Both the position numbers and the translations under genes were made by a program. Source: Acidobacteriota bacterium (lineage in GTDB: Bacteria; Acidobacteriota; Terriglobia; Acidiferrales; UBA7541). From it: a stretch of DNA of 46,443 nt. How positions within the stretch are numbered: the stretch's first letter is position 1; the number at the start of each line of letters is the position of its first letter. The stretch spans positions 28,451-74,893 of the forward strand of contig QHYJ01000011.1 of the NCBI GenBank assembly GCA_003223255.1, given 5' to 3'. The notes under the pieces were generated by a model. That model was not told the DNA's origin. It made no database searches and saw only the letters and a list, made by a program, of their open reading frames with translations. This document shows positions 31,190 to 38,895 of the stretch, in pieces.

Positions 31190-33544
31190 TGGGCTGCGGG
31201 GCACGAAGTTCCCGATAACGGAAGGCCTTAAGTGGTGGAGACCTAGCTCGCAACGATCGGCATGATTTCCCTCGCAGCAACACCGTAGCTGCTAGGCTGA
31301 ACGTAGCCCCGTCGAAAACCTTAATACCAAAGAGTTGACTCGCAATCAGAGGCTTCAGCAGGAGTGAAATTCCCAGTCCCAGGGCCATGCCAAAAAGGGT
31401 CACTATTAGTCCATGTCGGAATATGAGCAGAAGAATATTCGCGTTAGAGGCGCCAATCGCAATACGAATTCCGATCTCCCGAGTCCGACGCGTTACGACG
31501 TAACTCAAGACAGCATAGAGACCAACGGACGCTAGCACTAACGCCAAAGCTGCGAAAATCGTGAGAAGCAGTGTCACGAACTTCCGCTTTTGCAGAGATG
31601 CAGCGAGTAAATCCTGCATTGAGTTGACATCGTACACCGGGACGCTGCTGTCGACCTCGTTGATTGCTTCTCGGATAGCGGCCACAAATGCTGTCGGATT
31701 GGCTCTTGTTCTGATTATGAGTGTCGTTCCAGCATATCCGGGAATATAGATCATTCCTGTGGACTCTGCGGCGAGATCGGTGTCACGCACGTCGCCGACC
31801 ACGCCGATAATCGTTGCCCAACCGTCCGCCTCGTTCCCGATTTCGGAACCGATGGGGTCCTGATTCGGCCAGAAACGTTTGGCGAGCTTTTCGTCGATGA
31901 TCGGACACTGCCTTTTCCTAGCGAGTTACCCACTCGCATTTCCGCAGCAGTGTGGAAGCGTCCACTAACTAACTAATTAGGGGTATCTTCAGTGCTGCGA
32001 AGTATTGTGGCGTGACTAACGTCACGTTCGCGAATGGTTCTGGCTTGGTGGGGTCAACTTGGCGTCCCTTAATGTCAAACGTAGTGTTGTAGCCCTCAGA
32101 AGCGAAAGGAGCTCCTGTCGCGATTGCAGCTTGTGATACACCAGGCACTGAAGAAATCCGATCCAGAAGCGATGCAGAAAAGGAGGCCACGTGCAACGGA
32201 TCGTAAGGTGTTGACGAGGCAGTTTTACCCGAATTGATTGCCGCTACGGGAAGGGAGAAGCGCATCGTTAGCACGTTGTCAGGAACAAAACCCGGCTTGA
32301 TCTCGACGAGCCGTTCGAATGTTCGGAGCAGTAACCCCGACGCCACCAATAGCACGAGGGCGAACCCCACCTGCGAGACTATCAACGCGTTAGCAAACGA
32401 TCGACGATCCATAGTTGCGCCGCGACCACCGATTTTCAGGCTCTCAGCAACTTGCACGCGCGTTGAAAGAAATGCCGGCAGCACTCCGAACGGTGCACTG
32501 CTGATCACACAGATTGCGAATGTCCAAAATGACCACCCGCACGTCAAGATGAACATCGGCAATCCGTACTTTCGGCGAAAAGTTGGCCGACGAGCCGTAT
32601 GCCTTGGCAACCGAGAGCGCTTCGGATGGCAATTTCGTAAGGAGGCCCCTCATTCCGCACCATAACCAGATTCGCGACATTAGTGCATGCCAGTAAAAGC
32701 AATAGCCCGACGGCAGCCCATACTAGGTATAGTATAGCTGATTCTCTACGTCCCCAACCTCTTCATCCATGAGCGACCGAACTTCAACGTGAAATTGCGC
32801 AAAGGTACCTCCGTTGAAATGGGCTGCAGAGGTTTCCATTCCAACCTGCGCTTGTTTGAGATTCACGCCAGGAGCTAAGCGTGCCCCAACATGGTGTATC
32901 CGACATACCAGCGATATTTTGGCGATAACGACTCTCCTGGTTGAATACTGCTGGAATCCAGATTTCCACGTGAGGATAAAGAGCTTCAATTTCCTTCGGC
33001 AAGACACCGATGATCTCGTAACTCTTTGCGTCAAGGCGTAACTCACGACTGACGACGGCCGGATCGTTTCCAAAGAGTCGGTGCCAAAGTCCGTGACTGA
33101 GCAGAACCACTCGCGCACTTCCATTCGTATCGTCCTGACTTGTGAAGTCGCTTCCTAGCTCCGGACGGACCCCCAGCAGCGAAAATAACTGTGACGTCGC
33201 CTCCATCCCCTGCAAGCGCAATGCTTGTCCCGTCAGAGTTAGGTCCGTTCGCTTTAGAGCTGCGGTCGACTCGAAAAGATCCGTCCTCTGGCTGAATCAC
33301 GAAATTGCAGCACAGAGACTGTCGTCCGCGGGAGGTTCAACGTGGAAAATTGGTCGTGCACCACAACTACATTTTGCGGATCCCGAATTGGGAGGCGACG
33401 CACCAGAACGGCGCTAACTACGGTGAATATAGCGGCGTTTGCACCGATCGCGAGAGCGAGTGTCAGAAGCACAGTCGCCGTAGACTTGGGACTCTTTCTT
33501 AGCACGCGAGCTGCATACAGAACATTGTTCCACATAGGAATCAT
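31190..33544 (-). pseudogene. ADOP-type (MacB/FtsX-like) permease, multiply frameshifted
   Basis: About 2.35 kb, the full length of an ADOP permease gene, but split over at least four frames. The pieces in order are WNNVLYAARVLRKSPKSTAT with LALAIGANAAIFTVV (33254-33544), then the extracytoplasmic domain VVLLSHGLWHRLFGNDPAVV (32784-33221). Next comes the middle membrane region ALIVSQVGFALVLLVASGLL (31969-32610), and then a segment near 31800-31910 (KLAKRFWPNQDPIGSE). Last is the C-terminal helices LLTIFAALALVLASVGLYAV and RTREIGIRIAIGASNANILL (31190-31802). The ATG overlaps the upstream peptidase stop by 4 bp. Confidence 0.85.
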
Positions 33545-35127
33545 GGTTGCGCCTTGATGGTTGGATACGGAATTCCCAGTTGCTCGAGATAACTCTTATA
33601 CCGTGCGGGGTCGTAGTAGAACTTCCGCAGTTGCGGAAGAAACCTTTCCATCTTTTCCTTGTTCATTTCAATTGCCGGATTGTCCTCAGGACTCAGGAAC
33701 GACGAATAGTGGATGTCCTTTGTCTGCACGTTGCGGAAATATTCCCACGCCTGCTGAACCAGTTGCGGTTGCAACAAAAAGTCAAGCGCGGTGAGCGCTT
33801 GGACTTTTGCGCCGGCAGTGGATCCCTTGTGCGCAATGGGCGTGGCCATAGCCACGGCGTTCGGCCAACTGTGGCCTGGCAAGCTGGGGATGTTCGCGGG
33901 GTAAAACAGATACGTCATGGGCACATTCCAGGAAATGTCGCCCACATCATCGGATGCGCCTCCCGTTAGATTTTTCGCTGGTTCGGAGAGCGGTTCAATT
34001 TTCTCCCTCAATCCTTCCACCTTGGCGCCGATTTCTTTCTGGAGCGCTTTGGCCAGCGTCTGATCTGCTTCGCTCCACTTGGGCATGCCCACGGCTTCGA
34101 TGTTTTTCTGTTGGGCCTCTGCGATGACCTTGTTAAAGAAAGCCGGCCAGGCCGAGCCCACCAGCTTGTGGTCCACGGTCGTGCCGGTCATCTTCGCTGC
34201 CGAATCGGCGATGGAATTTCCCAGATCGTACAGCTCTCTGATGTGTGAATAATCCAGTTCGCGGAAGTAGTATCAAACTGCGGCTTCGGACGGAACGACG
34301 TTTGGCTGATCGCCACCGTTGATGATGACGCGATGCGAGCGCTGGGCGGGCCGTAGATGCTCGCGGCGAAAATCCCAGCCCGTGTCCATCAGCTCGACGG
34401 CGTCGAGCGCGCTTCGTCCCTCCCAAGGCGCCATCGCCGCATGGGCCGCTTTGCCGCGGAAGAAATATTGCACGGAAACCAGACCGCTAAACATGCCGTT
34501 TCCTGTGGCGTAAGAAGTCGCAAACTCCGACCCGACGTGCGCTCCCAGCACCATGTCTACATCGCGGAACAATCCAGCACGCACATAGAAAGCCTTTGTC
34601 CCCAGCAGTTCCTCCGCAACCCCGGGAAAAATCTTGAGCGTTCCGGCAAGGTGATGCTCTTCCAGCAGTTTCCTCAAGACGAGCGCGGCGGTTACGTTTA
34701 CCGCCATGCCGGAGTTGTGGCCTTCTCCGTGTCCAGGCGCGCCATCTATCAATGGATCGTGATACGCCACTCCAGGCTTCTGAGAAGCACGCGGAATGCA
34801 GTCAAGGTCCGTGATAAAACCAATCACCGGCTTGCCGTGGCCATAAGAGGCCACCCAAGCCGTGGGAATGCCAGCAATTTCGCGTTCGATGTGGAAGCCG
34901 TTCTTCTCCAGGATGCCCGTGACGTAGCGCGACGTTTCGTACTCCTGGAAGCCAAGTTCGCTGAAGCTGAAAATTTCGTCGACCATCTGCTGCGTGAGCG
35001 TCTGCAGCTTGTCGACCTCTTTGATGGCCTCCTCCTCCAATGTGCGGAGTGCGCCAGGCTGCTGACCTAAAAGAGCCGGCGCTGCACAGAGGGTCAAAAA
35101 CAAAACGACAAAAGAAACTGTTTTCAT
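33541..35127 (-). pseudogene. Exported M20 (AbgB-like) amidohydrolase with an internal TGA
   Basis: Zinc amidohydrolase of the M20D type. The frame starts at 35127 with a signal peptide (VSFVVLFLTLCAAPALLG). It shows FSFSELGFQEYETSRY, FITDLDCIPRASQ, GHGEGHNSGMAVNVTAALV and a lid domain (GLVSVQYFFRGKAAHAAMAP). After NVVPSEAAV a TGA (34275-34273) interrupts the protein at codon 285. In-frame translation continues at once as YYFRELDYSHIRELYDLGNS and runs to 33541 with LGSAWP-like and HSWPNAVAMATPIAHKG blocks. The expected residue at the stop is Trp (AVWYYFRE in relatives), so a TGG-to-TGA change is likely. Without the stop the protein would have 528 residues. Confidence 0.85.
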
Positions 35128-37143: not shown

Positions 37144-38895
37144 ATGAGTTTCTCCTGGAAACAGTACGAAGCCCAGGTCATCAACAATACCTTTCCGTTG
37201 CTGCAGTATATAGGCGGCTCCAGCGAATCCGCCGTTTTCCTCACGCAACTCGCCGGCCCGCAATCCTCCAAAGCCGTAGTCAAACTGTTTCCTGAAGAAC
37301 TGTCGGTTGATCTGCAGCTTTCTCTCTGGCGCCGCGCTTCCAAACTCACGCATCCCAATTTGCTTCAGTTGTACCAGGGCGGCCGTTGCCGTCTCGCGGA
37401 CATGGATCTTCTCTACGTCGTGATGGAATACGCTGAAGAAGATCTTTCTCAGATTCTCCCGCAACGCGCCCTGACGCCTGCGGAAATAAAGGACATGCTC
37501 GGGCCTGTGTTGGACGCGTTGAGCGATTTGCATGGGCAAGGCCTGATCCATTCACGTTTGAAGCCATCGAACATTTTGGCCACCAGCGATCAGGTCAAAC
37601 TTTCGACCGACCGGCTTTTTCCCGCCGGTGAAATTCGCAAATCTTCGGCGAAACGCTCGGCGTACGACGCGCCGGAAACCGCAAATCAGGCGCTCACCGC
37701 CGCAAGCGACGTTTGGTCGCTGGGCGTGATGCTCATCGAGGTGCTGACGCAACGGGTCCCCACCGGGCAACCGGGCACGCCGGCGCCGGAATCGCTTCCG
37801 CAGCCGTTCCGCGACATCGCCCAGCATGCCCTCGAACGCGATCCCAAGCTTCGCTGGAGCATCGCCCAAATCGCGGCCAGCCTGAATCCTCGCGCCGCCG
37901 CCGCAGCGCAAAGCGCGTCTCCGTTGTTGGTTCCCGTACCGCCGGTTCCTGCGGTTCCTGCCGCAAAGCTGCAGGCCCCGAAACCTGCGCCCTTGGTACC
38001 GCCGCCCCCTCCTCCGGCGCCAGCGCCGAGACGGCCTCTTTTCTCTCCCCCGGCCGCGAGAGCTCCGAAGCCTGCATCACCGGCGCCACCCGCGCCGGTG
38101 ATGCCGCCCATCCTGCCGCCGCTCGCGAAAGCGCCGGGGTCGGCGCGGCCCGTAATACCGCCGCTCGGAAGGGCTCCGTTGCCCGAGAGTTGGAAGGTGG
38201 GCGGCGCAAAACGAGACATTGTCCTTCCCAGCTACGTCATCGCGATTGGGTTTGCGGTCTTGGTCGTCGGTGCAATCGTCGCGCTACCCAAATTCCTCGG
38301 CAGGCGCGTGGAGTCTTCCACTCCTGCCGCTCCAAGGACCACCGCCCGTGCGGCGTCGCGGGAATCCACCGAACAACCGGCAAGCTCGGAAGTTTCCCGG
38401 AACGCAAAACCGAGTTCTTCTGCCAGCCGGGATTCGTTGAAAACCGCGGCAACGAAACCAGCGGCGAAAGAAATTTCCCAGCCGCCAGCCGTTTCTCCCT
38501 CTCCCGCTTCCTTGCGAACCGAAACGAGAGCTGCAACGAGCACACCGGCGAGTTCCACAACCGGTACCGCTGCCAGTTCCGGTCCAGCTTCCGGTCAGGG
38601 CGAAGTGCTGGACCAAATCTTGCCGGACGTTCCTGACAAAGCGCTGGCGACGATTACCGGCAAGGTGCGCGTGACGGTGCGCGCTCATGTCGATGCTGCC
38701 GGCAACGTTTCAGACGCCGAGTTCGAGAATCCCGGCCCGAGCAAATTTTTCGCGGATCTCTCCCTCAAAGCCGTTCGCCGCTGGGAGTTCACTCCGCCGG
38801 AAGTGAATACGCGCAGCGTTCCCAGCGAATGGCTGGTGCGCTTCGAGTTTTCAGCGTCCGGCGTGCAGGCATTTCCCAAGCAAATCACCCCGTAG
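37144..38895 (+). CDS. Pseudokinase - transmembrane - TonB C-terminal fusion protein
   Basis: The protein has 583 residues. At 1-250 is a Ser/Thr kinase-like fold with Lys47 in AVVKLF, YVVMEYAEEDLSQIL, YDAPE (174-178) and SDVWSLGVMLIEVLTQRVP. The catalytic HRD is replaced by HSR (HSRLKPSN, 136-143), and DFG is missing (VKLSTDRL). It is therefore predicted to be catalytically dead. Residues 257-350 are Pro/Ala-rich. One helix lies at about 362-384 (SYVIAIGFAVLVVGAIVALP). A Ser/Thr/Ala-rich linker follows to about 485, then a TonB-like C-terminal domain (about 505-570; VTVRAHVDAAGNVSDAEFEN, LKAVRRWEFTPPEV). The topology suggests the cytoplasmic pseudokinase is joined to a periplasmic TonB domain. 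No exbB/exbD are nearby. Confidence 0.85.
   Translation: MSFSWKQYEAQVINNTFPLLQYIGGSSESAVFLTQLAGPQSSKAVVKLFPEELSVDLQLSLWRRASKLTHPNLLQLYQGGRCRLADMDLLYVVMEYAEEDLSQILPQRALTPAEIKDMLGPVLDALSDLHGQGLIHSRLKPSNILATSDQVKLSTDRLFPAGEIRKSSAKRSAYDAPETANQALTAASDVWSLGVMLIEVLTQRVPTGQPGTPAPESLPQPFRDIAQHALERDPKLRWSIAQIAASLNPRAAAAAQSASPLLVPVPPVPAVPAAKLQAPKPAPLVPPPPPPAPAPRRPLFSPPAARAPKPASPAPPAPVMPPILPPLAKAPGSARPVIPPLGRAPLPESWKVGGAKRDIVLPSYVIAIGFAVLVVGAIVALPKFLGRRVESSTPAAPRTTARAASRESTEQPASSEVSRNAKPSSSASRDSLKTAATKPAAKEISQPPAVSPSPASLRTETRAATSTPASSTTGTAASSGPASGQGEVLDQILPDVPDKALATITGKVRVTVRAHVDAAGNVSDAEFENPGPSKFFADLSLKAVRRWEFTPPEVNTRSVPSEWLVRFEFSASGVQAFPKQITP

Follow-up and report, generated by a model that had tools for sequence, protein, structure and literature searches.

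The open reading frame studied here runs from 37144 to 38895 on the forward strand, where the preliminary description had placed it, within a window (the whole stretch of DNA analysed, 46,443 nucleotides) that lies on contig C416 of a 6.66 Mb Acidobacteriota assembly in 428 contigs. Its 583 residues are arranged, in order, as a kinase-like domain, a proline-rich linker, one membrane helix, a second linker, and a domain that resembles the C-terminal domain of TonB; the coordinates of these features given below are all on the forward strand. The start methionine is common to 27 of 28 members from the same genus, and one relative (L009, whose gene is identical to that of G025, a genome of the window's genus) covers residues 1-583 and reaches 71% identity to the window protein in the best segment. 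Neighbouring genes in the window encode a DNA glycosylase, an acetyltransferase, a glyoxalase-like protein, an M50 peptidase, DinB, DNA polymerase III gamma/tau, an M20 peptidase, and one product without a match, and close relatives share the flanks with the DNA glycosylase, acetyltransferase, M50, DinB, and dnaX regions. The M20-type peptidase (33541-35127, reverse strand) is apparently split in two frames, of which 34273-35127 gives matches to M20 and to the beginning of the dimerisation domain and 33541-34191 resembles the remainder by eye; this gene may be broken, or the split may be a sequencing error. Among the tested window neighbours, Pfam identified no exbB, exbD, or TonB-dependent receptor, as had been noted before, and the nearest Plug match on the contig lies about 35 kb downstream, beyond the window. 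The conserved receptor neighbours that the preliminary description had proposed to look for did not emerge either, since no neighbour cluster recurred in at least four of 30 distant loci (25 from other genera and five diverged ones from the own genus, several cut by contig ends) besides the gene itself and three sets of reading frames overlapping it.

A search for further proteins that combine a kinase fold with TonB_C recovered, with the window protein, 53 distinct fusion sequences from four families. The residue counts that follow refer to these 53, which comprise 28 own-genus sequences (the window protein included) and 26 from outside the genus, less one duplicate (L115, identical to L108). 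The own-genus set was reduced from 31 aligned sequences by dropping two paralogues without TonB_C (L002 and L003) and one sequence cut by a contig end (L036), while L030, whose gene is not in one frame, was kept out of the alignment.

The kinase-like domain (residues 12-250; 37177..37893) is matched by Pfam Pkinase over residues 66-244 (E 1.7e-22). A profile of the 28 own-genus members matched 1147 distinct PDB sequences at 1e-10, and PknB (1.2e-24) is the closest solved relative among the best 60 of these 1147. NCBIfam scores for the anti-phage kinase MAD6 (76 of 460 bits) and for PASTA kinases (68 of 450 bits) fall far below their cut-offs and reflect general kinase similarity only. The elements that had been reported from a first reading were all found in the sequence: Lys47 (37282..37284), equivalent to the ATP-site lysine and conserved as K in 49/53 members, the DAPE and DVWSLG motifs, and HSR in place of HRD at residues 136-138 (37549..37557). 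The position of the HRD aspartate is occupied by Arg in 25 members, His in 22, another residue in three, and Asp in only three, such that the catalytic Asp is lost in 50/53. Asn143 of the catalytic loop (37570..37572) is conserved in 49/53. The preliminary description had also stated that DFG is missing, and this holds for the motif as such; an aspartate nonetheless persists at the usual place of the DFG Asp, thirteen residues after the asparagine (Asp156; 37609..37611; D in 51/53). The next residue is in most members T, G, R, S, or A in place of Phe, and Gly two residues on occurs in none. The N+13 spacing between the catalytic-loop Asn column and the Asp156 column holds in all 54 aligned rows (53 distinct) and also in five of six ordinary kinase motifs found by a pattern search of the fetched loci, the sixth having a spacing of 17. 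Profile alignments place S, T, A, or another non-Asp residue in the DFG-Asp column of all 53 members, with the Asp one residue later.

According to excerpts of a 2025 review (PMC12599244), a pseudokinase lacks at least one of the beta3 Lys, the HRD Asp, and the DFG Asp. The window protein, with a Pkinase match and without the HRD Asp by which active Hanks-type kinases are judged, thus classifies by sequence as a pseudokinase, which is how it had first been labelled. Lys47, Asn143, and Asp156 could possibly still support nucleotide binding, given that an Asp at the canonical spacing persists in 51/53 members. A further step to catalysis seems highly improbable. Such a reading would make the protein an active transmembrane kinase that employs a non-canonical base and carries a TonB-like sensor. 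It could draw on the conservation of K47, N143, and the Asp at N+13, and on three members (L028, L029, and L034) that carry HGD and thereby the catalytic Asp. These three form a single clade (support 0.996 in a midpoint-rooted tree) among members without the Asp, which looks like a reversal, and they may have kinase activity. Elsewhere in the family, however, the HRD Asp has become Arg or His in 47/53 members, the glycine-rich loop is degenerate by eye, and Phe-Gly is missing after Asp156. Moreover, the three members of one clade (L126, L127, and L128) have lost most of the activation segment together with the APE Glu and have kept the helix and the TonB-like domain, which favours a non-catalytic role.

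The TonB-like domain spans residues 486-583 (38599..38892) and is supported by Pfam, a family profile, and a predicted model. Pfam TonB_C matches residues 509-570 (E 2.4e-6; 28.4 bits against a cut-off of 24.6), NCBIfam TIGR01352 (tonB_Cterm) scores 30.1 bits against a cut-off of 27.1, and a profile of the 28 own-genus domains, which align as 98 gapless residues in 28/28, matches TonB C-terminal domains in the PDB (best 9.6e-6). The W-x-F-x-PP segment reported at the outset is present as WEFTPP at residues 547-552. An AlphaFold2 model of this domain alone, computed from a two-row alignment of the window protein and L009, reached a pLDDT of 80 and a pTM of 0.71 and has a predicted TonB-like fold, in agreement with the first expectation; a full-length model from one sequence was uninformative, with a mean pLDDT of 39. 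With the domain model, the best Foldseek match has an E value of 7.3e-3 at probability 1.00, none being at or below 0.001, and the first seven rows are TonB-family domains. A second structure comparison (VIA) aligned 75 residues at 2.0 A with a Z score of 9.0, the first 12 rows being TonB-family domains, and placed biotin-carboxylase-type rows at a middling Z of about 5-6. Since a Z of 9.0 is barely above the 7 to 8 typical of models without a clear match, the sequence evidence weighs as much as the structural comparison. Nine residues are invariant in the 53 members (P494, A500, T503, G506, G520, S533, W547, F549, and F567), and the YP motif occurs in none of them, on account of which we regard this half as a specialised branch of the domain.

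Between the two domains lie a Pro/Ala-rich linker on the kinase side of the membrane (37894..38229), a single transmembrane helix at residues 363-381 (38230..38286), and a Ser/Pro/Ala-rich, presumably periplasmic linker (38287..38598). This order of proline-rich region, one helix, and TonB-type end is the one first proposed. The helix has a hydropathy of 2.59, and a weaker segment at 183-201 (1.53) falls within the kinase domain. A membrane helix was found in 53/53 members, three of which have it at 241-259, 217-235, and 229-247. Lysine and arginine within 25 residues of the helix are richer on the kinase side in 31/51 members and poorer in 7, with a split of 19 to 17 within 10 residues; the flanking charges would mildly favour a kinase-inside orientation. 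This is also the natural reading given that the N-terminal domain is large and shows no signal peptide by eye. These indications support the orientation proposed initially, in which the kinase-like domain is probably cytoplasmic and the TonB-like domain probably periplasmic.

The distribution of the fusion within the class is patchy. Among 61 related genomes searched, both domains were matched in many of those from the same genus. The C-terminal profile matched 78 of 299 class genomes at E 1e-8 or better, including 26 of the 30 same-genus genomes in that draw, and above 80 bits there were 64 matches in 63/299 genomes from four families (the own family, f6, f7, and f11). In a phylum-level draw, 5/347 genomes, one of them the own genome, had matches at E 1e-15, and all five belong to the same class, whose share of the 347 is not given. 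All 38 loci of the 64 strong matches that lie outside the own genus were fetched. A kinase-like domain was found in the same frame in each of the first 26 (82-405 bits). The other 12, which stand outside the residue counts, comprise six clear fusions, one fusion with a partial kinase score (L154), two loci cut by contig ends (L159 and L162), one in which the kinase and TonB-like parts are in separate frames (L157), and two from genus g27 (L158 and L161) in which a frame of about 300 residues holds the helix and the TonB-like domain with no in-frame kinase domain. The kinase seems to have been lost from these two g27 matches or never joined to them. The fusion is hence present in 33 of the 38 outside-genus matches and, with at least two that are not fusions, is not universal across the family. 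Two oddities were met in this set. One distant member (L129:6149-8344, reverse strand) has about 300 extra in-frame residues upstream of the kinase; a portion of these looks by eye like a receiver domain, without a Pfam match. The identical proteins of L108 (G158) and L115 (G306) come from genomes that are placed in two different families, pointing to a foreign contig in one of the bins.

Both domains are under constraint. The window gene was set against close relatives in five comparisons, which all share this gene and are not independent; dN/dS was 0.10-0.13 in the kinase domain, 0.12-0.18 in the C-terminal domain, and 0.18-0.39 in the linkers and helix. Pairwise distances in the kinase and C-terminal domains are correlated over the 53 sequences (r 0.80; 0 of 999 permutations as high). 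The common architecture of 53 distinct sequences, the low dN/dS in both domains, and their joint divergence indicate that the gene is real and not a chance reading frame.

The same genome encodes paralogues that hold the pseudokinase in other settings. One (L002/L147; 576 residues) has the same kind of pseudokinase joined through an apparent helix (by eye) to a different C-terminal part without a Pfam match, and another (L003; 302 residues) is a pseudokinase without TonB_C. A paralogous pseudokinase stretch at G000:C220:9803-10462 (L004) contains internal stops. The existence of L002/L147 and L003, with the pseudokinase and without TonB_C, marks the pseudokinase as a module that serves more than one output. 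The pairing in L002/L147 of the same pseudokinase with an unrelated C-terminal part, as if the former were a common signalling end, would also suit an outside-in sensor, in which the TonB-like domain would sense the state of something in the periplasm (peptidoglycan, an envelope protein, or a receptor) and the pseudokinase would relay it to cytoplasmic partners without phosphorylation. Receptor-type Ser/Thr kinases have this very topology, with the kinase inside, one helix, and a sensor outside, and PknB is the best solved relative of the kinase profile. Conversely, we know of no TonB domain that acts as a sensor. Conservation in the C-terminal domain is no lower than in the kinase (own-genus column identity averages 73% vs 61%), which would fit a binding function equally well, and the two g27 matches that keep the helix and TonB-like domain without a kinase suggest that this end has a role alone. 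On balance, an outside-in sensor appears rather unlikely.

The preliminary description had proposed signalling-gated energy transduction. Put in terms of motors, this would mean that the pseudokinase gates a helix coupled to an ExbB/ExbD or Tol motor. In TonB, the SxxxH motif of the helix couples the protein to its motor, and the YP motif falls in the receptor-contacting region. None of the 53 members has a His in the helix core. When the flanks are included, [SAT]xxx[HQ] occurs in two members (L122 and L128), each time at the far helix end. As a comparison, we read 15 of the 30 TonB_C matches of the genome other than the window protein, with search spans slightly wider than those used for the family. 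Five of these carry [SAT]xxxH in or beside the helix, three carry SxxxQ, and seven carry neither (one of the seven having no helix), while YP occurs in the last 140 residues of 10/15. A missing His motif alone is no proof of a different role, since other TonB_C proteins of the genome lack it too. Similarly, we found no recurrent exbB/exbD neighbour or genetic link for the family gene, which weighs little because true tonB genes can be unlinked to exbB/exbD. Taken by features, the protein has the predicted fold of a TonB energy transducer and lacks the Ser/His helix motif, the YP motif, and an exbB/exbD link. A canonical proton-motive-force drive through ExbB/ExbD is unlikely, judging from a helix without the coupling His and an altered receptor-contacting region.

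Three of the seven proteins with neither motif join a PilZ domain through a helix to TonB_C (L041:1495-3027, L149:161-2608, and L150:1011-3014, all on the reverse strand), linking a c-di-GMP-type input to a TonB-like end. Other combinations in the genome include a 511-residue frame in which a trypsin-like protease domain precedes two TonB_C stretches (L060:1402-2934, reverse strand) and a set of TPR repeats ahead of a TonB_C match (L044:187-1809, reverse strand).

An energised protein whose helix engages the motor without the usual His would be conceivable in a genome that has both motors and receptors: 2 ExbB and 4 ExbD matches in two loci (one of which resembles Tol-Pal by eye), 34 Plug matches (28 of them over the cut-off), and 30 TonB_C matches (28 over the cut-off). 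With these numbers of TonB_C, ExbB, and ExbD matches, many TonB-like proteins would share few motors. The predicted TonB fold of the C-terminal domain points in the same direction, and a two-hybrid assay showed an interaction of the motor protein AglR with GltG, whose layout is similar, as excerpts of that study report (PMC3169522). Set against this, the helix-core His and the YP motif are missing from every one of the 53 members and no motor gene recurs beside the family gene, which weakens the original proposal and leaves us to regard an energised role as distinctly unlikely.

We tentatively propose, with somewhat less than even confidence, that the window protein is a non-catalytic adaptor that spans the inner membrane by one helix and is most likely not driven by ExbB/ExbD in the canonical manner. 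The kinase-like half, judged by its sequence, has lost its catalytic base and been kept as a constrained module, separated by a single helix from a TonB-like domain with which it has diverged mostly as one unit. In the cytoplasm, the pseudokinase may serve for docking or for sensing a ligand, perhaps with nucleotide binding retained, and its state would control how the TonB-like domain is placed or clustered or how available it is; this domain in turn may bind a periplasmic or outer-membrane partner. The protein would then act as a transmembrane scaffold, unlike classical TonB. This inferred adaptor role carries the caveat that the His motif was judged missing by sequence, whereas an unusual TonB could couple otherwise.

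More generally, we speculate that the lineage may have a class of transmembrane couplers, in which a cytoplasmic module (the pseudokinase, PilZ, and perhaps others) is followed by a motor-independent helix and a TonB-derived domain, and which would deliver intracellular signals by binding or mechanically to periplasmic or outer-membrane proteins. The pseudokinase-TonB proteins would be one such type, present in at least four families of the class. We hold this broader idea as possible, though doubtful. The fusion nonetheless represents a defined pseudokinase family with a nameable likely output domain, and it suggests that TonB-type domains have been freed from energy transduction to serve as the periplasmic ends of signalling or scaffold proteins. 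Partners, if identified, would show a route by which a cytoplasmic pseudokinase reaches the outer envelope.

In comparison with the canonical TonB of the TonB-ExbB-ExbD system, the window protein shares a TonB C-terminal fold, one helix, and a Pro-rich linker, but carries a kinase fold of about 250 residues ahead of the helix and lacks SxxxH, the YP motif, and adjoining exbB/exbD genes. The closest described layout is that of GltG (PglI) from the gliding machinery of Myxococcus xanthus, in which, according to available parts of the publication, a cytosolic FHA domain and a helix precede TonB_C (PF03544, E 1.8e-5) (PMC3169522). Both proteins thus combine a cytosolic signalling-type domain, one helix, and a C-terminal TonB_C, and the earlier statement that no system with such an arrangement had been described does not hold for the general layout. 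The cytosolic part of GltG is an FHA domain, however, rather than a kinase fold, and we detected no FHA match in the window protein (Pfam, E 0.01). GltG is also encoded in a motility gene cluster, as excerpted from the same publication, whereas no GltG-type motor or glt genes were found among the neighbours of the window gene. The pseudokinase version of the layout was not found in the open-licence literature, where a search for kinase-TonB fusions returned none. For PilZ joined to TonB, the same literature held nothing relevant, with TonB occurring only within a reference in the portion of PMC10313047 that was available. The PilZ proteins of this genome (L041, L149/L053, and L150/L050) share with the window protein the order of cytoplasmic domain, helix, and TonB_C and a helix without the His motif, and differ in their PilZ input and in a C-terminal domain that has YP and higher TonB_C scores.

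On the kinase side, the abstract of the 2025 review describes bacterial pseudokinases as largely unexplored by experiment (PMC12599244). Excerpts of the review cover the families ActPs1-3, GLW, CP1, DYD, and DLHK, with Act1/Yegi1 members in Table 1, and neither 'TonB' nor 'Acidobact' occurs in its main text. Like the family described here, the reviewed families show a conserved, defined loss of catalytic residues, and several have a helix after the kinase, as far as these excerpts extend. A Nocardia Act1 protein in that table has HQRLR, with a similar Arg for the HRD Asp. EssB/YukC of type VII secretion in Firmicutes is portrayed in the same source as a transmembrane pseudokinase that recruits the secretion machinery (PMC12599244). 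Compared by description, EssB/YukC differs from the window protein in having losses in each of the three catalytic motifs and, in the excerpts of the review, in having no TonB domain mentioned, yet it shares a cytoplasmic pseudokinase and one helix, and by this analogy we consider it the nearest functional counterpart on the kinase side.
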